Source: Hyphomicrobiales bacterium
Lineage (GTDB): Bacteria; Pseudomonadota; Alphaproteobacteria; Rhizobiales; Devosiaceae
Direction of reading: 5' to 3'
NCBI GenBank assembly: GCA_004144345.1
Contig: SEEL01000024.1
Location: forward strand, 1-50,055
DNA length: 50,055 nucleotides
Part shown: positions 31,141-43,493 of the stretch, one piece after another
How the letters are laid out: each line of letters begins with the position of its first letter
Numbering within the stretch: position 1 is the first letter of the stretch
Notes under the pieces: model-generated
What the model was told of the DNA's origin: nothing
The model's database searches: none
Seen by the model: the letters and a program-made list of their open reading frames with translations, nothing else
Position numbers and translations under genes: made by a program

Positions 31141-33609
31141 TCACCCCTGCTCCAGCCGGGCCTCGTCGAGACCGGCCAGGTGATCGGCGTCGATGACGCT
31201 GAGACGCTCGCCCTGGGCCAGCAAGCGAGCGAACGCCGCCTCGCCCAGCTTCGCCGCCAGCAGCTCGCCCAGCCGGTCGCGTTGCCGCTGCTCGGTGGGC
31301 TGCCGGCCATCCGGCCAGGCGCGGATACGGGCGTCGATGATGCCGAGTACCAGCGCGGCATTGGCCTCATCGCCCTGCCAATACTGCCATTCGGCGGCGT
31401 TCTGCAGCACGCACAGATGCCAATAGCTGCCGTCGCGCGGAATGATGGCCGCCGATTGCCGATAGGCGTCGCCGGCGCCCTCGATGTCGCCCAGCGAAAA
31501 CCGGTAGACCGCCATATTGCCGAGCTGGTTGGCGCGATGCAGGCGCGGCGCGCGACGGTTGAGGTCGGGCAAGATCTCCTCGATTAGGTCCAGCGCCAGA
31601 CGCGTATCGCCCGTTTTGTGCAGGATCTCGGTGAAATTCATCACCGAGCGGAAGCGGCCATTGGGGTTGCCGGTTTCGAGATGCAGCGCGAACCCGGCCT
31701 GGCAGCGCGCCAGCCCGGCGCTGCGGTCGCCGGTCAGCCACATATGGATGCCGAGGATCGCCAGCGCCCATGCCTTGGTCTTTGAGGTCGGCATGGCAGG
31801 CAGCAGCGCATCGACCTCGGCGATCAGCTGCGTCGCCTCTTCGATGGAGCGGAAGAAGACGGTGATGCAGGCGAGCAGCACCATGGCCTGGCGGTAGCGC
31901 ACGCCGTCATCATGGTCCCGCAGCCAGCCGACGGCGCCGGTCAACCCTTCCCACGCCCGGATATCGCTGGCATTGAACCGCCCGATTTCGCCGAGCGCAA
32001 GGCCGAGCCGCGCCCGCGCCTGTTCCGATGCCACGGCAGCGTGGCCCATTGCCTCCTCGATGGTGGCGATGCCCTCGGCCCCGAGCTGCTCCTCGATGAA
32101 ATAGCGGGCCGTTTCCGCCGCCAGTTCGACGAACGCGCCCTTGTGCGGGCGCGAGCGGGTCCAGGCCAGCGCGGCGCGCAGATTGTCGCCGTCGGGCCGG
32201 TAGAGGGCGTGCCAGCTCTCGTCGGGGGTGGTCTCCCAGAGTTCGACGCTGCCGGCAAAGAGTTGCGTGAGGAAGGCGGCGTGCCGGTCGCGCGCCGCAT
32301 CGGCCTCGCCGGCCGCGGCAAGCTGTTCGAGCGCGAAGCGGCGCGTGCTGTCGAGCAGCCGGTAGCGCGACCGGCTCATCGCGTCGCGCATCACCAGCGA
32401 ACGGCGCACCAGTTCGGCGACGTGCTGGTCGGCTCCCTCGCCAGCCACGGCGACGACGCCATCGAGTGAGAAGGAGCCGTTGAACACGCCGGCGGCCCGC
32501 AACGTCCGCTGCTGCTCCGGCGGCAGCAGATCATAGCTCCAGCGCAGCGACGCCAACAGCGAACGGTGGCGCGGCAGAGTGGTGTTCCAGTCGGCGCTGA
32601 GACCGGCCAGTTGCGACTCGATCTGCCGGTCGACGGCCTCGAGGCCGATGGTCGCGGCGCGGGCGGCGGCCATCTTGAGCGCCAGCGCCACGCCATCCAG
32701 CCGGCGGCAGAGCCGTTCGACGATGGGATAGTCCTCGGGCAGGACCGCCTCCCCCGACATCTCGACGCAATAGCTGAGGAATTGCGCGGAGGTGGCCAGC
32801 GCTGCGCCGTCGCCGCCGCCGAGCGCAAAGGGCAGCAGCTTGAAGATCCGCTCGCCCGGCAAGGCGAGGGGCACCTGGCTCGTGGTCAGCACCCGCAGGC
32901 CCGGCACGTCTTCGAGCAAGCGGCCGATGACGCGTCCGGCATCGGCCGCGACATGCTCGCAATTGTCGAACAGCAGCAGCGTTTCGGCCTGCCGCAGATG
33001 ATCGGCGAGCAATTGCGCCGCGTCGGCGCCCTGCCGGAACGGCACGCGCAACGTCTGGGTGAGCACGCTTTCAATGAAGGCGCCGCTGTCGAGCGAGGCG
33101 AGATCGATCAGCCACACGCCTCCGGGCAGGCGCCGGGCGCTCGCCACGGCGACGGCCAGCGTCGTCTTGCCGACCCCGCCAGGGCCGACAAGGCTCACCA
33201 GCCGGTACTGGTCGAGCAGGCCGGAAAGCGCTGCCGCCTCCTCGTCGCGAGCGATGCATTCGCCGTAATAGCGCTCGATATTGCCCGGCCCGGCCGGCGC
33301 CACAGGCGCCTCCGCCCCGCCCGGCGCGGGTCCGGCATATTTGTAGCCGCGGCCATGGATGGTGGCGATGTAGCCGGTCCCGAGCACCTTGCGCAGCGCC
33401 GAGATGTGGACCTGCAGCGTGTTGTCCTCGACGATGAGGCCCGGCCAGGCCGCCGCAAACAGCGCGTCCTTGTCGAGCACCGTGTCGGGCGCCGCCAGCA
33501 GCGCGCGCAGCAGATCGAAGGCCCGGGCGGAGAGCTCGAGCGGCCCTGCGGGGCCGACCAACTCCCGCTCCCGCAGTTTCAGACGATAGTCGCCAAACAG
33601 CAGATCCAT
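31141..33609 (-). CDS. Winged-helix transcriptional regulator with NB-ARC/STAND ATPase
   Basis: An 822-residue one-protein regulator. The N-terminal OmpR/CadC-type winged helix (about 1-92) is recognisable from LELSARAFDLLRALLAAPDT, DNTLQVHISALRKVLG and IATIHGRGYKY. A STAND ATPase follows, with RDEEAAALSGLLDQY, Walker A VGPGGVGKTTLAVAVA, Walker B LLLFDNCEHV and an arginine-bearing LTTSQVPL segment. The C-terminal 400 residues are helical repeats, likely TPR-like ligand sensors. Such proteins switch between closed ADP and oligomeric ATP states on binding an inducer. No ligand or target is known. It lies inside the otherwise conserved rpsA-sppA neighbourhood and faces away from the DUF1127 gene, so a shared promoter region of about 110 bp could control both. 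Confidence 0.9.
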   Translation of the reverse strand: MDLLFGDYRLKLRERELVGPAGPLELSARAFDLLRALLAAPDTVLDKDALFAAAWPGLIVEDNTLQVHISALRKVLGTGYIATIHGRGYKYAGPAPGGAEAPVAPAGPGNIERYYGECIARDEEAAALSGLLDQYRLVSLVGPGGVGKTTLAVAVASARRLPGGVWLIDLASLDSGAFIESVLTQTLRVPFRQGADAAQLLADHLRQAETLLLFDNCEHVAADAGRVIGRLLEDVPGLRVLTTSQVPLALPGERIFKLLPFALGGGDGAALATSAQFLSYCVEMSGEAVLPEDYPIVERLCRRLDGVALALKMAAARAATIGLEAVDRQIESQLAGLSADWNTTLPRHRSLLASLRWSYDLLPPEQQRTLRAAGVFNGSFSLDGVVAVAGEGADQHVAELVRRSLVMRDAMSRSRYRLLDSTRRFALEQLAAAGEADAARDRHAAFLTQLFAGSVELWETTPDESWHALYRPDGDNLRAALAWTRSRPHKGAFVELAAETARYFIEEQLGAEGIATIEEAMGHAAVASEQARARLGLALGEIGRFNASDIRAWEGLTGAVGWLRDHDDGVRYRQAMVLLACITVFFRSIEEATQLIAEVDALLPAMPTSKTKAWALAILGIHMWLTGDRSAGLARCQAGFALHLETGNPNGRFRSVMNFTEILHKTGDTRLALDLIEEILPDLNRRAPRLHRANQLGNMAVYRFSLGDIEGAGDAYRQSAAIIPRDGSYWHLCVLQNAAEWQYWQGDEANAALVLGIIDARIRAWPDGRQPTEQRQRDRLGELLAAKLGEAAFARLLAQGERLSVIDADHLAGLDEARLEQG

Positions 33610-34511: not shown

Positions 34512-36206
34512 TTACTTCTTCTCGCGGTCCTTGAGGGCGGCGCCCAGGATGTCGCCGAGCGAAGCGCCCGAATCCGACGATCCGTAGTTGGCCACGGCTT
34601 CCTTCTCCTCGGCGATTTCCAGCGCCTTGATGGAGAGGGCGATCTTGCCGGTCTTGCGATCGTACTGGGTGACGCGCGCGTCGACCTTTTCGCCCTTGGA
34701 GAAACGCTCCGGACGCTGGTCGTTGCGGTCACGGCTGAGATCGGCGCGACGGATGAACGCGGTCATCTCGGAATCCGCAATGCGGACTTCGATGCCCCCG
34801 TCATTGACCTCGGTCACGGTGCCGGTAACGACGGCGCCCTTCTTGAGGCCATCACCCGAGCTGTCCTTCTCGTCGCCGGTCGACAGCTGCTTGATGCCGA
34901 GCGAGATACGCTCCTTTTCGACATCAACGTCGAGCACCTTGGCCGAAACCATGTCGCCACGGTTGTATTCGTCGAGGGCCAGTTCGCCCGGCTTCTGCCA
35001 GTCGAGATCCGAGAGATGGACCATGCCGTCCACATCGCCGTCGAGACCGATGAACAGACCGAATTCGGTCTTGTTCTTGACCTCGCCTTCGATGGTCGAG
35101 CCGATCGGGAACTTCTCGGCGAACGATTCCCACGGGTTCTGCAGCGTCTGCTTCAGGCCCAGCGAGATACGGCGCTTGTCCGGATCGACCTCGAGCACCA
35201 TGACTTCCACTTCCTGCGAGGTGGAGACGATCTTGCCCGGATGGACGTTCTTCTTGGTCCACGACATTTCGGAAACGTGGATCAGGCCTTCGATGCCCGG
35301 CTCCAGTTCGACGAACGCGCCGTAGTCGGTGATGTTGGTCACGCGGCCGGTGAACTTGGCGCCCATCGGATACTTGGCCTCGATGCCTTCCCACGGGTCG
35401 GCCTGGAGCTGCTTCATGCCCAGGCTGATGCGGTGCGACTCGTGGTTGATGCGGATGATCTGGACCTTGATGGTCTCGCCGATCGACAGCACTTCCGACG
35501 GATGGTTGACGCGACGCCACGCGATATCGGTGACGTGCAGCAGGCCGTCGATGCCGCCGAGATCAACGAACGCACCGTAATCGGTGATGTTCTTGACCAC
35601 GCCGTCGACGATCTGGCCTTCTTCGAGCTGCTGGACGATTTCCGAACGCTGCTCGGCGCGCGATTCTTCGAGGATCGCACGACGCGACACGACGATATTG
35701 CCGCGACGCTTGTCCATCTTCAGGATCTGGAAGGGCTGCGGCACATTCATCAGCGGGCCGATGTCGCGGATCGGACGGATGTCCACCTGCGAGCGCGGCA
35801 GGAACGCCACGGCGCCTTCGAGGTCGACGGTGAAACCACCCTTGACCTGGTTGAAGATGATGCCTTCGACGCGCTGGTTGGCGTTGTAGAGCTCTTCGAG
35901 CTTGACCCAGCTCTCTTCGCGGCGAGCCTTCTCACGGCTCAGCACGGCCTCGCCCATGGCGTTCTCGACGCGGTCGACATAGACCTCGACCTCGGAGCCC
36001 ACCTTGATCGTGCCGTCACGGCCGGCCTGGCCGAATTCCTTCAGGGCGATACGGCCTTCGGTCTTCAGACCGACGTCGATGATCGCCAGATCCTTCTCGA
36101 TTGCGACGACGATGCCCTTAACGACGGCACCCTCGAGCGGCTCGTTCTCCATGAACGAGTCCATCAGCATCGATTCGAAATCGTCTTTTACAGCTGCGTT
36201 AGCCAA
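34512..36206 (-). CDS. rpsA: 30S ribosomal protein S1
   Basis: Binds mRNA leaders and delivers them to the 30S subunit. The 564-residue protein has six S1 (OB-fold) domains: GAVVKGIVVAIEKDLAIID, RVEGIIFNQVKGGF, VDGVVKNITDYGAFVDL, TGRVTNITDYGAFVEL, EGEVKNKTEFGLFIGL, and a more divergent final one (GTVTEVNDGGIEVRI). TTG 36206 is the start: GGAGAG precedes it, and LANAAVKDDFESMLMDSF is the usual alphaproteobacterial N-terminus, while the frame upstream has no protein-like composition. cmk lies 160 bp upstream, and the gap holds small hairpins that could be a regulatory leader. Confidence 0.97.
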   Translation of the reverse strand: MANAAVKDDFESMLMDSFMENEPLEGAVVKGIVVAIEKDLAIIDVGLKTEGRIALKEFGQAGRDGTIKVGSEVEVYVDRVENAMGEAVLSREKARREESWVKLEELYNANQRVEGIIFNQVKGGFTVDLEGAVAFLPRSQVDIRPIRDIGPLMNVPQPFQILKMDKRRGNIVVSRRAILEESRAEQRSEIVQQLEEGQIVDGVVKNITDYGAFVDLGGIDGLLHVTDIAWRRVNHPSEVLSIGETIKVQIIRINHESHRISLGMKQLQADPWEGIEAKYPMGAKFTGRVTNITDYGAFVELEPGIEGLIHVSEMSWTKKNVHPGKIVSTSQEVEVMVLEVDPDKRRISLGLKQTLQNPWESFAEKFPIGSTIEGEVKNKTEFGLFIGLDGDVDGMVHLSDLDWQKPGELALDEYNRGDMVSAKVLDVDVEKERISLGIKQLSTGDEKDSSGDGLKKGAVVTGTVTEVNDGGIEVRIADSEMTAFIRRADLSRDRNDQRPERFSKGEKVDARVTQYDRKTGKIALSIKALEIAEEKEAVANYGSSDSGASLGDILGAALKDREKK

Positions 36207-36366
36207 ATAACTCTCCGTTTGCGCCCGGCGGTTTGCGTGAACTGACCCGGCTTCACCGCTCAGCAAAAAGCGGTCCGGTGCGCGAAAGCGCGAGCCAGCA
36301 ATTTGATTGGAAGTCCGGTGCCGGTCCTTGGTCGATGACGAAGGGGCTGACGGGGGAAGGTTTGGT
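36207..36366 (-). other. rpsA leader region with small hairpins
   Basis: The 160 bp between cmk and rpsA read on the minus strand include ACCGC...GCGGT with a T-rich loop and GCGC-TTTC-GCGC, two short stem-loops. They could be part of an S1 autoregulatory leader, which is known for S1 in other bacteria, or just structure in GC-rich sequence. Confidence 0.3.
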
Positions 36367-37017
36367 TTAGGGGGTCGAAACCCCCGCCTTCCCGGCCATG
36401 ACCCCGTCGACAATGGCGACGGCAGCGCGGAGTGCGGCCTCTATATCCAAGCGCGTCGTGTCCAGCAAGTGGGCATCGGGCGCCCGGTAGAAGCCGCCAT
36501 TGGGGTTGGCGCGGTCGCGCGCGTCCCGTTCCTCGATCTGGTGATAGAGGGCGTAACGGTCAACCGGCAGGCCTTTCAGCTCGAATTGCCTGGCCCGGCG
36601 CTCCATGCGCGCCTTGCTGTCGGCCTCGATGAACAGTTTTACGTCGGCTTCCGGGCAGATCACGGTGCCGATATCCCGCCCGTCCAGCACCGCGCCGCCC
36701 GGCTGATGCGCGAAATCGCGCTGATACTGGCGCAAGGCCTCGCGGACGGGGCCGATCACCGCCACCTTGCTCGCCAGACTTCCCGCCTCGCCGCTGGTCA
36801 GCGCGTCGAGATCGCTCAGATGCGCCGCATCGAGCGTCCTGGCCGTCGCGATCGCCCGCGCCTCGAATTGCGGGGTATCCACCGCGTCCCGCACCTTGAG
36901 GCCGACGGCGCGGTAGAGCAGCCCCGTATCGAGGTGCGGCAACCCATAATGGCGGGCAAGTCCTTGTGCCAGCGTACCTTTTCCAGACGCGGCGGGGCCG
37001 TCCACGGCAATGATCAT
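36367..37017 (-). CDS. cmk: Cytidylate kinase
   Basis: Phosphorylates CMP/dCMP to the diphosphates. The 216 residues have P-loop DGPAASGKGTLAQGLA (6-21), the CMP-binding DTGLLYRAVG, and AVLDGRDIGTVICPEADVKLFIEA, then the Arg-rich lid (MERRARQFELKG) and DTTRLDIE. The ATG overlaps the aroA stop (ATGA), so cmk translation probably depends on aroA translation. The aroA-cmk-rpsA order is conserved in Alphaproteobacteria. Confidence 0.97.
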   Translation of the reverse strand: MIIAVDGPAASGKGTLAQGLARHYGLPHLDTGLLYRAVGLKVRDAVDTPQFEARAIATARTLDAAHLSDLDALTSGEAGSLASKVAVIGPVREALRQYQRDFAHQPGGAVLDGRDIGTVICPEADVKLFIEADSKARMERRARQFELKGLPVDRYALYHQIEERDARDRANPNGGFYRAPDAHLLDTTRLDIEAALRAAVAIVDGVMAGKAGVSTP

Positions 37018-38312
37018 GCCGCGTCACCGGACGAAAAGCTGGCGCCGACATGCTCGAACGCCCGCACGAAATCCGGAAACAGCCCGGCCATTACGCCTCC
37101 ATCGTCAATGGTCACCGCCTTGTCGGTGGCCATGCCCAGAACGAGGAAACTCATCGCCAGTTTGGGGTCAAGGCGGGTCGCGACCTTTCCCCCGCCCGGC
37201 ACACGCCGCTGCCCCCGCACCAAGAGCCCACCCTCGCGCTCCTCGCACTCGATGCCATTGTCGCGCAGCGCCCGTGTCAGGGCATGCCGGCGCTGCCCCT
37301 CAGCCAGCCCCTCGATCATCGTCTCGCCCTCGGCAAAAGCCGCTGCGATGGCGAGAATCGAGCGGTCCTCGGCCGGAATATCGAGGCTCGCCGGCAGAAT
37401 CGTGCCGACCAGCGGGCCATAGCGCACCGTGAGGTCGGCCGTGGCGCCATCGTCATGGGGCACAAGCGTCAGGTCGCCGCCCAGCAATTGCAGCGCATCG
37501 AGGCTGCCAAGCCGCCCCGGGGTCAGCGAAATACCCGGGATGGTCACCTCGGAATCGGGAGCGAGCAGCGCCGCCACCGCCGGATAGGCCGCCAGCAGCG
37601 GGTCGCCCGGCACGGCATAGTCGAAGCCCGTAAGCGGCTCCATGCCGCTCAAATCGACGCGCTGGCCATCCTCAGCCACCGCCAATTGCGCGCCAAAGGC
37701 CTGCATCAGCCGTTCGGCGACTTCGGCGCCGCCATCGGGCAAATGGAAAATGCTGGTGCCCATGATGGCGAGCGCCATGACCAGCAGCGGCGTCTTCAGC
37801 GCCAGCGCCCCCTCCGGCAGGGCGAGATCGAGCGGCACGGTGAAGCGCGGCCCGCGCAGCAGCAGGCCGTCGCCGTCGCGGCGGACGCGCACGCCGTTGC
37901 GGGCGAAGAATTCGAGCAGCGCGTCATTGACCGGCGTCGCCTCCAGCCCGGTGATCGGGCTGTCGAAATCATGCGCCGCGAGCAGCCCCAGCAGCAGCGG
38001 CGCCGCCTCGCCCAGCCCGCTGAAATCGAGCGGCGCGGCCGGCTCGAACAGCGCGCCGATGCCATTGCCGGCAATTTGCCAGCGCCCGCCATGCCATTGG
38101 GCATCGGCGCCCAGCGCCCGCAGCGCCCCGGCGAGGGCGGCTATCGCCGGCTCACTGCTCATGTTGGAGAGCACGCTCTCGCCGCGCGCCACCCCCGCCA
38201 GGAGCAGCGCGAGCCGCGACACGGCCGGGTCGCCTGGAACGGCAACCGGACCCCGCAACCATGGCGACCGCTCCGCTGCCAGCGGGTTCGGTGGAAGGCT
38301 TGGAGAGAGCAT
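37014..38312 (-). CDS. aroA: AroA-family (EPSP synthase-like) protein with altered active-site motifs
   Basis: A 432-residue protein in the canonical aroA position, coupled to cmk by ATGA. It aligns along its full length with class II EPSP synthase: VPGD near 25, LDFSG near 95, VPGDP...AAYPAVAALLAPDSEVTI near 234-258, ILAIAAAFAEGET near 319 and AMSFLVLGM near 386. However, the family active site is not preserved: PGDKSISHR is PGDPAVSRL (26-34); NAGTGCR is SGLGEAAP (98-105); the RPM segment is lost (121-130); SAQVKS reads ALALKT (169-174); RDHTE reads GAEVAE (195-200); RVKESDR is missing (336-343); DHR is DPK (382-384). EPSP synthase activity is therefore doubtful. No frameshift or stop is present. 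Confidence 0.85.
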   Translation of the reverse strand: MLSPSLPPNPLAAERSPWLRGPVAVPGDPAVSRLALLLAGVARGESVLSNMSSEPAIAALAGALRALGADAQWHGGRWQIAGNGIGALFEPAAPLDFSGLGEAAPLLLGLLAAHDFDSPITGLEATPVNDALLEFFARNGVRVRRDGDGLLLRGPRFTVPLDLALPEGALALKTPLLVMALAIMGTSIFHLPDGGAEVAERLMQAFGAQLAVAEDGQRVDLSGMEPLTGFDYAVPGDPLLAAYPAVAALLAPDSEVTIPGISLTPGRLGSLDALQLLGGDLTLVPHDDGATADLTVRYGPLVGTILPASLDIPAEDRSILAIAAAFAEGETMIEGLAEGQRRHALTRALRDNGIECEEREGGLLVRGQRRVPGGGKVATRLDPKLAMSFLVLGMATDKAVTIDDGGVMAGLFPDFVRAFEHVGASFSSGDAA

Positions 38313-38418
38313 GACGCTACGCCCTGAAAGGACCCCGGCGATCAGTTGCGGCGCAAGCGCGGCAAATCCGTGGCGGTGCGACCCCTTGGCAAACCGGCCG
38401 AACCGCCAGCTTTTGCGT

Positions 38419-38447
38419 TTGACAGGGCCCGGCTTTCCCCCTAACCG
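38419..38447 (+). promoter_or_regulatory. Sigma-70 promoter of the TIGR02300 gene
   Basis: A perfect TTGACA (38419-38424), a 17-bp spacer and TAACCG (38442-38447) lie 49 bp before the TTG start. The remainder of the 183-bp gap to aroA must hold the divergent aroA promoter. Confidence 0.6.
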
Positions 38448-38495
38448 GACGAACCCGAAGCGGGAGGCCCCGCGTTTTCAGCAAAGGAAGCAGCT

Positions 38496-38909
38496 TTGGC
38501 CAGTCAAGACCGCGGCACCAAACGGGAAGATCCCGAGACCGGCAAAAAGTTCTACGATCTGAACAAAGATCCGATCGTATCGCCCTACACGGGCAAGTCC
38601 TATCCGCGCTCCTATTTCGAGCAGAACGTCACGCCCCGGAAGCCCGGCCGCGACGAGGAGCAGGAGGACGAAGAGGAAGTCGAGGAAGTCGAAGTCACGG
38701 CGAATGTGCCGGACGACGGTCCTGAAGTCATTTCGCTCGAGGATGCCGATGCCGAAGAGGCAGGCGATGAGGGCGAAGAGATTCCCGATGTCGAGGATGT
38801 CGAAGACGTCGAAGATATCGGCGAAGACGATGCCGACACCTTCCTCGAGGAAGACGAAGAAGAAGAGGGCGACCTCGATTTCGACGTCGGCGGCAGCGAC
38901 GAGCGCTAA
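38496..38909 (+). CDS. TIGR02300 family acidic protein
   Basis: 137 residues. The conserved N-terminus, GTKREDPETGKKFYDLNKDPIVSPYTGKSYP, is that of TIGR02300, a family largely confined to Alphaproteobacteria and often next to aroA. It is followed by a very long Glu/Asp run (from residue 45 to the end, with EVEEVEV and DVEDVEDVED repeats). Net charge is strongly negative. The function is unknown; nucleic-acid mimicry or binding to basic proteins has been suggested for such tails, but this is inference. TTG 38496 is used, with AAAGGAAG 5 nt before it. tRNA-Ala follows. Confidence 0.9.
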   Translation: MASQDRGTKREDPETGKKFYDLNKDPIVSPYTGKSYPRSYFEQNVTPRKPGRDEEQEDEEEVEEVEVTANVPDDGPEVISLEDADAEEAGDEGEEIPDVEDVEDVEDIGEDDADTFLEEDEEEEGDLDFDVGGSDER

Positions 38910-39007: not shown

Positions 39008-39083
39008 GGGGCCATAGCTCAGTTGGGAGAGCGTTTGCATGGCATGCAAAAGGTCGTCGGTTCGATCCCGTCTGGCTCCACCA
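39008..39083 (+). tRNA. tRNA-Ala (anticodon GGC)
   Basis: A full 76-nt cloverleaf with encoded CCA. The acceptor arm GGGGCCA/TGGCTCC includes the alanine identity pair G3:U70. The D arm is GCTC/GAGC, the anticodon stem TTTGC/GCAAA with loop ATGGCAT, and the TpsiC loop TTCGATC. The anticodon GGC is at 39041-39043 and reads GCC and GCU. The terminator at 39091-39119 follows. Confidence 0.97.
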
Positions 39084-40890: not shown

Positions 40891-40928
40891 AGCTCGATCC
40901 GGTAAAGGGGTGACGCAATATGACGGCG

Positions 40929-40953
40929 AACGTCAGCGAAAAAACGCGGTTCC
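40929..40953 (-). promoter_or_regulatory. EcfG-type general stress promoter of treZ
   Basis: On the minus strand GGAAC (40953-40949), exactly 16 nt, then CGTT (40932-40929). This matches the GGAAC-N16/17-CGTT consensus of EcfG, the alphaproteobacterial general stress sigma factor. It lies 38 bp upstream of the treZ ATG, which fits a short leader. Confidence 0.75.
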
Positions 40954-41081
40954 CGTCCGCGTCGCGGAAACGCTATGGCGCGCGCCACGTTGCAGCCGCC
41001 GAATGCCGCAGAGGCAATTGCGTTTGGCCTGATTGCGGATACCGTAGTCCCTCGGAAGGCACGGTCTCGGGGGAAATCGCA

Positions 41082-43493
41082 ATGTCGGCTGGTCGCGCGG
41101 AGCTTCTTCGCCATGCCTTGGTGCGAGCCGCCCTTGTCGCCGCCCCGCCCGCCCTCCTGGTCCTCGTCATGTCCCTCGTGTTGCCGGCGGGGCCGGCGTC
41201 ACTTGAGGTGTTTGTGCAGGCCATCGGCCTGCCCGGCCTGCTGTTCGCTTCAATCGGTGAAATGTTCGGGCTGAGCTTCGCGCCGGTCCGGGAGTTTCTG
41301 TCGGGCGATCCGGCCCTCGCCATCGTGCTGGCGATCGCCTTCTACGTGGAACTGGTGATCCTGCTACGCCTCCCGTTGTTCGGCCGGCCGATCATTGACC
41401 TCATCTGGAGGCCGGCACCCGAGTTGATCAACTATCGGCCGTCGCAGAGCGATGGCTTCTTTGCCGGGCGGCTCGAGGAAATGAGCACCCTGATGCGCGC
41501 CGCCGCCGATCTGTCGCGCCCCCGCATCTATCAGGTGACGGCGCGTGAGGGCGGCGGGAAGAGCCGCTTTGCCGCCGAAGTCCTGAGCCGCCTCGAGAAG
41601 GCCGGCTGGGACGCGGGCTTTCTGGCGCCGGGCAGCACGCCGGAGGCGGCGCGCTCAGCCAGCTTCCGCAAGCGCTCCCTGGTGGTGATCGACGAGGCGG
41701 CCTCGACGAACATGCTGTGGGCGATCCTGCTTGAGCTGATCGCCAAGAAGCGGCCCATCCTCATCCTGCTGCTGGAGCGGTTTCCGCTCTCGCCCGATGC
41801 CTCGCTCGATGTCGAAAAGGCCCGCCGGATCCGCGAGGCCATGTGGCCCGCCATCAAGTTGCCGCCGCTGACGGAAGCGCAATTGCGCCTCGCCAATCCG
41901 CAGGCCAGCGCCGCCGCCATTGCCGGCGCGGAGGGCCTGCCGCTTTATGCCATGCTCGGCGACGCCCCGCATGAAGAGCTGAAGCGGCGTGCGGCCAAGC
42001 GCCTCGATCGCGTGGTTTCCGAGGAAGACCTTCGCACGCTGCTGCTCACCAGCCTTGTCGGGCCGTTTCCGATCGAGCGGCTCGTTGAAACCCCGCGCAC
42101 CGTGCACCGGCTCGGGCGCCTTGGCGAATTGCTGGATGTGACACGCGAAGCGCTGCAGGGCACGGTGCCGGGGCTGAAGCCCGATTTCATCGCCGACGAG
42201 GTTGCCCTGCTCAGTGCGGCCGACCTGCCCCGGCCCGAGCTTGACGAGCTGCTGGCAGTGGCCGCTGGCATCAACGCGGTGGCCTGCACGAGGCGTGTCA
42301 TGCGCCTCCGCCGGCGGGCGGCAAGCGACAGCAATCTGCGCGACCTGGCGATGCACATTGAAGATGTCGTGCTGACCCGGGCGCCGGAGGGACTGACGGC
42401 GATTGTCCATAGCGCAGCGGAAGCGGCGGCGGCCTACGCCAAAACCGGTGACGATGCCACTCTGGACCAGTTGTACGACATCCTGCAGGAGGCGCCGTTC
42501 CATCCTGACCTGCAGCGCATCGCTATCATGACGCTCACCTCCATGTGCCGCCGCGGCGCGCCGGTGGTCTCGTCAAAATGGGAAGGCGTCCTCGACGACA
42601 GCCTGTCCGCCGACACGAACCGCTACTCCACGACGCAGCGCCGCGAGGTCCTCCCGGAGTTGGGATACCTGCATCACTGGCTGGGCGAGCTCAATCTGAA
42701 GCAGCGGGCGACGCGCGCCATCGAGCTGTACCGGCGGCTGAATGATGGGCTTGTCGACATCCACGACGACCCGGTTGGGCGCTGGGTCGCGCGCATCGCA
42801 TGCCAGGTCACGCACATATCGGACTCCTGTACGGCGGCCGAAATCGAGCCGTGGCTGGCCGAAACACTGGGTTATGAAGGATCCCGGCCGAGCAGCTCAG
42901 CCCTGGTCCAGATCGCTGCCCACGCGGTTACGGCTTACGCCCGGCTGGGCGATGAGGCCGAGCTGGAGAAATGGACCGCCATCTTCGATCGCTGGGTCGC
43001 GCTGGAGCGAAAGAACCCTCAGCTGCGCGCGTTCGCGGTGATCAAGGCAATCGAGTACCACGGCAAACTGGATCGGGTCGACGACGCCGGCCGCTGGCTC
43101 GCCCGTCTGCCGCCCATCACCGATGCCGCCATCAATGCGGAGGAAAACTCGCTCGAGGGCTGCTGGAACACCACCTTCGCCCTCGACCGGTATGTGAAGG
43201 CGTTCCGGGGACGCGAGCACTTTGACGTCGTGCTGCCCCTTGCCAGCCAGCTGGCCGAAGTGGCCACGCCGCGCTTCGGGAGTAACCGGAAATATATCCG
43301 AAGCTACATGGCGCTCGCCGGAACCATGTTCGATGCCGCCATTGATCTGGGGGATGGAGCGGTGGCCGAACGCTGGCTCAATGAACTGGAGCGCTGGTGG
43401 GACACCGCCGGGGCAGACTATCTTGCGAGCGTGAAACAGCGGCGGGCCGTGTACCAGGCGGCCGACCGGCCGGGCGCTCCGACCATGCACTGA
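41082..43493 (+). CDS. Membrane-anchored STAND-like P-loop protein (803 aa), family not recognised
   Basis: Not recognised by name. N-terminal hydrophobic segments (about 17-36, 42-60 and 77-98) suggest membrane anchoring. FFAGRLEEMSTLM (126-138) looks like the entry motif of STAND/AAA ATPases. AREGGGKS (154-161) is a Walker A with Ala for its first Gly. LVVIDEAA (200-207) is a Walker B, and RPILILLLERF is a plausible sensor strand. The remaining 500 residues look like helical repeats (QLAEVATPRF, ELERWW and many Ala/Leu helices). ATG 41082 has GGGGGA before it; the frame is open from 40920 without support. It is monocistronic with a terminator-like hairpin after it. A signalling or defence role is possible, but no gene beside it confirms one. 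Confidence 0.75.
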   Translation: MSAGRAELLRHALVRAALVAAPPALLVLVMSLVLPAGPASLEVFVQAIGLPGLLFASIGEMFGLSFAPVREFLSGDPALAIVLAIAFYVELVILLRLPLFGRPIIDLIWRPAPELINYRPSQSDGFFAGRLEEMSTLMRAAADLSRPRIYQVTAREGGGKSRFAAEVLSRLEKAGWDAGFLAPGSTPEAARSASFRKRSLVVIDEAASTNMLWAILLELIAKKRPILILLLERFPLSPDASLDVEKARRIREAMWPAIKLPPLTEAQLRLANPQASAAAIAGAEGLPLYAMLGDAPHEELKRRAAKRLDRVVSEEDLRTLLLTSLVGPFPIERLVETPRTVHRLGRLGELLDVTREALQGTVPGLKPDFIADEVALLSAADLPRPELDELLAVAAGINAVACTRRVMRLRRRAASDSNLRDLAMHIEDVVLTRAPEGLTAIVHSAAEAAAAYAKTGDDATLDQLYDILQEAPFHPDLQRIAIMTLTSMCRRGAPVVSSKWEGVLDDSLSADTNRYSTTQRREVLPELGYLHHWLGELNLKQRATRAIELYRRLNDGLVDIHDDPVGRWVARIACQVTHISDSCTAAEIEPWLAETLGYEGSRPSSSALVQIAAHAVTAYARLGDEAELEKWTAIFDRWVALERKNPQLRAFAVIKAIEYHGKLDRVDDAGRWLARLPPITDAAINAEENSLEGCWNTTFALDRYVKAFRGREHFDVVLPLASQLAEVATPRFGSNRKYIRSYMALAGTMFDAAIDLGDGAVAERWLNELERWWDTAGADYLASVKQRRAVYQAADRPGAPTMH

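Follow-up and report, generated by a model that had tools for sequence, protein, structure and literature searches.

The window (the entire 50,055-nucleotide stretch of DNA that was analyzed) contains an open reading frame (ORF) derived from EPSP synthase (EPSPS), with cmk and rpsA next to it (Table 1). An earlier note on this DNA had described an intact gene at 37014..38312; the coordinates are right, the strand is minus, and the ORF is free of internal stops. The order aroA-cmk-rpsA given there was borne out, with cmk identified by TIGR00017 and rpsA lying next. The ribosomal protein S1 models match the rpsA ORF only from about residue 68 to 78, showing that the true rpsA start is inside this ORF.

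Table 1. Features of the aroA-cmk-rpsA locus in the window (motif residues in the numbering of the ORF, lost residues in CP4 numbering)
Feature	Position	Strand	Remarks
rpsA ORF, ribosomal protein S1	34512..36413	-	Downstream of cmk
cmk, (d)CMP kinase	36367..37017	-	TIGR00017, 136.5 bits (cut-off 135.55)
ATGA overlap of putative pseudoenzyme stop and cmk start	37014..37017	-	
EPSP-synthase-derived putative pseudoenzyme ORF	37014..38312	-	432 aa; ATG at 38312, stop at 37014; internal stops, 0
DPK for DHR, residues 382-384	37161..37169	-	H404P, R405K
EGQRR, residues 338-342	37287..37301	-	Preceded by a 5-residue deletion removing K353
SGLGEAAP for GNAGT stretch, residues 98-105	37998..38021	-	N98, T101 lost
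PGDPAVSRL for PGDKSISHR, residues 26-34	38211..38237	-	K28, S29, R33 lost
Intergenic leader, common to putative pseudoenzyme gene and divergent neighbor	38313..38495	.	
TIGR02300 (FYDLN) family gene, divergent	38496..38909	+	Syntenic marker on the other side

Elsewhere in the window, Rfam yields a single match at gathering score, a tRNA-Ala (GGC) at 39008-39083 on the plus strand. An ORF of 857 amino acids (40920-43493, plus strand) has no Pfam match at 1e-5 and contains a GGGKSR stretch that is presumably a P-loop-like motif, and an ORF of 822 amino acids (31141-33609, minus strand) has a Trans_reg_C DNA-binding domain at the N terminus, followed by a long tail with no Pfam match at 1e-5.

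A full-length EPSPS homologue with an altered active site

The homology to class II EPSPS that the earlier note had traced along the length of the protein was recovered with two methods. EPSP_synthase (PF00275) matches residues 19 to 417 with 122.7 bits (cut-off, 22.8) and is the sole Pfam match of the ORF at an E value of ≤1, and CP4 EPSPS (PDB 2ggd) is the nearest solved relative found with phmmer (residues 8 to 430, E value of 9.3e-66). The score of 151.9 bits on the NCBIfam aroA model TIGR01356 lies under the curated equivalog cut-off of 287.25. Three other genomes of the same genus carry a similar copy, with 56 to 59% identity to the window ORF, which shows that the degenerate state is due neither to chance nor to a sequencing fault. 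A scan of the genome contigs retrieved only 3 distant relatives, 24 to 36% identical.

An AlphaFold2 model of the protein, obtained with only five aligned sequences, has a pLDDT of 87.3 and a pTM of 0.87. Ranked by E value, the best PDB matches in Foldseek were liganded and unliganded CP4 EPSPS (TM scores of 0.72 to 0.80, E values of 2.1e-41 or better), followed by other EPSPS and, further down the list, MurA. The model thus predicts that the EPSPS fold is kept. A viral origin was considered and rejected, as the fold search against BFVD gave 0 viral matches with an E value of ≤0.001.

Residues were read, in CP4 numbering, from a 28-row alignment and from a family alignment that includes CP4, E. 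coli AroA, and relatives. In these alignments the window copy presents the replacements K28P, S29A, R33L, N98G, T101E, S173A, Q175A, H404P, and R405K; R128 is lost and K353 is deleted. D326 aligns with a Glu beside an Asp, and E354 and R357 are probably still present, with EGQR aligned to ESDR. We take the ligand residues to comprise seven PEP/catalytic and seven shikimate-3-phosphate (S3P) residues, and S169/S170, CP4 R200, and the remaining members of the S3P set are likewise assumed to be ligands. On this count the window copy keeps 2/7 PEP/catalytic and 0/7 S3P residues. For E. coli, the text available from PMC10305266 lists K22, S23, R27, R124, Q171, and D313 among the ligand contacts, together with K340, E341, R344, H385, and R386.

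The motif readings of the earlier note hold in both alignments. Its statement that Lys and the two Arg ligands have disappeared is slightly too strong for the site as a whole, since E354 and R357 seem to be kept. As judged from the aligned sequences, the ORF is confirmed to be a full-length EPSPS homologue that has lost nearly all its ligand and catalytic residues.

A second EPSPS and the distribution of both types in the family

Three genes of the EPSP_synthase family are found in the genome from which the window derives, namely, the window copy, L001, and L002. L001 appears from its sequence to be MurA-like. L002, located on contig C130 beside a gene that we take to be GlmS-like, is a second EPSPS and scores 342 bits on TIGR01356, above the cut-off. 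Among solved structures it comes closest to 3nvs (Vibrio cholerae AroA; 231 bits) and 6hqv (fungal AROM protein; 229 bits), against 100 bits obtained with CP4, and L002 is therefore of the E. coli-like type. All 17 E. coli active-site residues are kept in the 30 distinct L002-type genes that were read (own genome counted once), out of 97 genomes that hold such a gene. The complete active site and the TIGR01356 score of L002 support the prediction, made previously, that a second EPSPS of active type would be found elsewhere in the genome. The trpA, trpB, and trpF genes on which that prediction had drawn are represented in the window by matches to Pfam Trp_syntA, PALP, and PRAI, and since chorismate synthase is also present in the genome, the shikimate pathway appears to be in use.

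A native-type copy was detected at an E value of ≤1e-20 in 64 of the 136 family genomes; 63 were aligned, and G148, with its copy in two pieces, was dropped. The 25 native copies read from genera g3, g5, g6, g26, g30, g31, and g32 all retain 14/14 ligand residues, and in these genera the L002 query gave weak matches only (best E values of 3e-11 to 6e-21). The L002 type, with 67 to 86% identity, is present in 18/19 genomes of g1 (the genus of the window), in 75/75 genomes of the sister genus g25, and in g7 (2), g28 (1), and g29 (1). G004, the only g1 genome without an L002-type match, is a fragmented assembly that has no cmk match either. All 38 native copies read in g1 (6) and g25 (32), the two genera with both types, are altered. 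In g1, the copy of G006 keeps 5 PEP and 4 S3P residues and lacks D326, K353, and E354; that of G007 keeps 1 PEP and 3 S3P residues; and those of the window, G018, G008, and G004 keep 1 to 2 PEP and 0 to 1 S3P residues. Copy L010 ends at a contig edge and has no cmk, G094, G092, G109, and G125 are unclassed, and L031 and L033 to L036 were not used.

Three further observations concern the family at large. The g25 copies L090 (G069) and L091 (G059) fall within g1 in the aroA tree, as does the cmk of these genomes in the cmk tree, which suggests that the aroA-cmk pair of these genomes was transferred between g25 and g1. Eight genomes of family f1 (G019, G021, G041, G044, G045, G046, G047, and G124) have no native copy at an E value of 1e-20 and match L002, in pieces or whole, at 36 to 48% identity; a further AroA type and a further displacement are likely there. 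Two g32 genomes, G149 and G151 (95 and 98% complete), presented neither a native nor an L002-type EPSPS at the thresholds used.

Selection on the native gene, its possible coupling to cmk, and its loss

The reading frame is free of internal stops in 37 of the 38 altered copies. A stop within the final 15 codons of a match was counted as a natural end, and G115, G114, and G082 were rejected as pseudogenes for this reason. The exception, G100, has two internal stops (codons 28 and 44), both where the copy is read out of frame; this genome is 84% complete and its second aroA is also split over two frames, and its native copy (L083) was excluded from the codon analyses.

The earlier note had proposed to compute dN/dS among close relatives. 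The M0 model, fitted to the window copy together with three sister copies, gave an omega of 0.116 (2ΔlnL of 451 versus an omega of 1), against 0.108 for cmk in three of those four genomes, values that saturation may have made too low. The NG86 omega was 0.34 to 0.60 for aroA of the same four copies and 0.17 to 0.31 for cmk of three pairs. In three g1 pairs the dN of aroA (0.34 to 0.39) is two to three times higher than that of cmk (0.11 to 0.15). Because of the saturation in M0, cmk was used as a clock. For the window, G018, and G008, this clock gives a neutral expectation of 0.20 to 0.24 for aroA identity, whereas the observed values are 0.58 to 0.61 (the window copy and two sister copies share 58 to 59% identity), and non-synonymous change in the three g1 pairs amounts to 0.28 to 0.35 of the neutral amount. 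Identity far above the neutral expectation indicates that the window protein is selected at the protein level. The absence of stops says little on its own, as only 0.9 to 1.5 per lineage would be expected if the three g1 pairs evolved neutrally.

The retention of residues is uneven. Among 112 near-invariant columns defined from 33 canonical rows, the window copy keeps 40/62 of those occupied by Gly, Pro, or non-polar residues versus 13/50 of the polar ones (Fisher test, 5.9e-5), in agreement with the retained hydrophobic framework that had been noted from the sequence. Moreover, six degenerate copies share 11 newly fixed columns, and in 9 of these, R33L and S173A among them, the new residue is Leu or Ala. 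The loss of active-site residues in the alignments, combined with selection mainly on framework positions, supports the assignment of the window ORF as a putative pseudoenzyme.

The ATGA overlap of stop and start with cmk is shared by the window, G018, and G008. None of the 21 copies with ≤5/7 PEP residues has a gap to cmk of more than 80 nt, compared with 6/16 of the others (Fisher test, 0.003, which overstates the difference, because most of the six decoupled copies belong to a single clade and 5/7 was picked as the split post hoc). The Shine-Dalgarno value before cmk has a median of −5.3 in 14 overlapping copies versus −6.3 in 56 loci that have lost the gene (P = 5e-4), which is only a moderate difference; the window has −3.0, and G005, where the gene is absent, is as weak, at −2.4. 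At gaps of 0 to 15 nt the Shine-Dalgarno is mostly not weak (15/16 at −4.5 or better). The signs are thus mixed, and cmk may be translationally coupled to the putative pseudoenzyme gene. Coupling alone, without selection at the protein level, was rejected in view of the M0 omega and the cmk clock.

The cmk locus was also read in 56 genomes that have no native copy (13 from g1, 40 from g25, 2 from g7, and 1 from g29). In 55 of these the divergent TIGR02300 gene, identified with phmmer, lies directly upstream of cmk; the exception, L127, has only 103 bases upstream, and here a loss is scored from the genome search. A sensitive profile search of the upstream ORF stretches of ≥50 amino acids found no convincing aroA remnant, and the single profile match, with an E value of 0.003, was rejected because it lies 1.5 kb off and on the other strand. 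Without regain, parsimony requires at least 10 (nucleotide) or 12 (protein) losses on single-gene cmk trees of 117 tips that are weakly supported in places. The nearest sister to the window, G005, is without the gene and has a cmk 91% identical to that of the window. Its DNA matches the window up to 38411, inside the intergenic leader, and resumes 5 nt before the ATG of cmk, with 107 unmatched bases between the two matches.

Possible reasons for the retention of the altered copy

We give about an even chance to the reading that the window ORF is a retired native aroA, superseded by a probably horizontally acquired enzyme and kept as a folded, translated leader of cmk. The ORF would be the original alphaproteobacterial aroA, still at its ancestral position. 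An ancestor probably acquired an E. coli-type EPSPS horizontally, and the new enzyme would have taken over the shikimate step; the presence, complete active site, and distribution of the L002 type are observed, and to these we add an origin and an order of events that are inferred. The native gene would then have been released from selection for catalysis. The overlap of its stop with the cmk start would have protected it from pseudogenization, since cmk is expected to be translated by termination-reinitiation from that stop. Nonsense mutations would uncouple cmk and misfolding mutations would burden the cell, while pocket mutations would be free. As the product would still be translated, it would have to stay foldable, so that the framework is kept while the pocket drifts; the drift toward small or hydrophobic residues seen in the newly fixed columns would have this cause. 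The way out would be a deletion by which cmk acquires a new leader, taken at least 10 times in the family by the parsimony count on single-gene trees. Among the reasons for retention offered in the earlier note (regulatory, structural, or coupling), we favor coupling joined with foldability.

The main rival, appreciably less probable in our view though a serious one, is that the protein is a true pseudoenzyme with a binding or regulatory function of its own, in which the EPSPS shell binds a partner or a ligand. Amino acid change well below neutral, which a binding function would explain just as well, and the intact fold of the model agree with this, as do two conserved stretches, one close to the N terminus (RSPWLRG, 6/6 g1 copies) and one close to the C terminus (LFPDFVxAFEH, 4/6). 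Against it, the repeated losses by parsimony, together with the absence of the gene in G005, would make such a function dispensable; the dN of aroA exceeds that of cmk two- to threefold in the three g1 pairs; and the newly fixed columns went to Leu or Ala in 9 of 11 cases.

A neofunctionalized enzyme, with other catalysis in the altered pocket, is improbable. DPK is kept in 4/6 g1 copies, E354 and R357 are probably kept, and the PEP half is intact in some sister-genus copies, but the window protein retains few PEP and no S3P residues, the replacements at the same sites differ among sister copies, and L011, the least altered g1 copy, is already without D326, K353, and E354. Still less credit is due to a neutral pseudogene not yet hit by a stop in a GC-rich genome, or to an assembly artifact: the low number of stops expected in the three g1 pairs would allow the former, but identity is far above the neutral expectation, 37/38 copies are intact, and other genomes agree. 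That the protein is still an EPSPS with shifted ligands is hardly credible, since, although E354 and R357 do align and D326 is replaced by a Glu beside an Asp, the alignments offer no substitute for K28, R33, R128, K353, and H404, and the same genome encodes a complete EPSPS.

The retired, cmk-coupled native aroA that we favor has a partial precedent, as displacement of an EPSPS with damage to the old copy is already described. In the text available from PMC1173090, the TyrA-AroF fusion of Pseudomonas syringae contains a damaged EPSPS domain in the cmk-rpsA neighborhood, a stand-alone EPSPS was gained, probably by lateral transfer, and the authors consider a regulatory domain a possible fate of the remnant. 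The likeness lies in the damaged old EPSPS near cmk-rpsA and the replacement that was probably acquired. However, the P. syringae domain is part of a fusion and is missing about 200 residues, whereas here it is a free-standing, full-length ORF that is under selection and belongs to a graded series over two genera. According to the same source, the EPSPS of A. tumefaciens was likely transferred and is not linked to cmk and rpsA. In comparison with class II EPSPS (AroA; CP4, PDB 2gg4, 2gg6, and 2ggd), the window copy shares full-length homology, the aroA-cmk-rpsA position, and the predicted fold, but is without the substrate and catalytic residues and below the NCBIfam aroA cut-off. As in pseudoenzymes in general, in the portions available of PMC5106787 and PMC10211241, the fold is kept, catalytic motifs are lost, and an active relative is present, although here the active relative is another EPSPS lineage and not a recent duplicate. 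A literature search, judged by titles and the beginnings of abstracts, found no EPSPS pseudoenzyme among the papers listed.

The copies form a graded series after replacement, from complete through a changed acceptor site, lost catalysis, and loss of nearly all residues to deletion of the gene, and the reasons for which bacteria retain dead enzymes in operons thereby become directly testable. Moreover, a gene called aroA by position and homology in g1 and g25 may not be an EPSPS, which matters for pathway models and for the prediction of herbicide sensitivity from the annotated gene.

The order of active-site changes in g25 differs from that in g1. In g25, 13/32 copies (L058, L060, L062, L064, L066, L071, L073, L074, L075, L077, L078, L082, and L085) keep 7/7 PEP/catalytic residues and 3 to 5 of the 7 S3P residues, and coexist with a complete EPSPS. 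Their S3P site is rebuilt, with A174 changed to Glu or Asp and K353 to Gln in all 13, S29A in 12, and R200 lost in 10. Three subsets of these PEP-retaining copies gave omega values of 0.06 to 0.10, compared with 0.05 to 0.10 for cmk in the same genomes and 0.05 to 0.06 for canonical AroA of two genera. A PEP half that is strongly selected next to a remodeled acceptor half is the pattern that a new acceptor would be expected to leave. Tentatively, and with the balance of probability against it, the displaced aroA of g25 may have become a new enolpyruvyl transferase for another acceptor, maybe one without phosphate, with the window copy as a parallel, non-catalytic outcome; alternatively, these copies could be EPSPS with altered kinetics. 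If true, AroA and MurA would be joined by a third kind of enolpyruvyl transferase. The PEP-retaining g25 copies are candidate catalysts of an enolpyruvyl transfer that has not been described. According to the gene tree, the PEP half, too, was subsequently lost in several g25 lineages.
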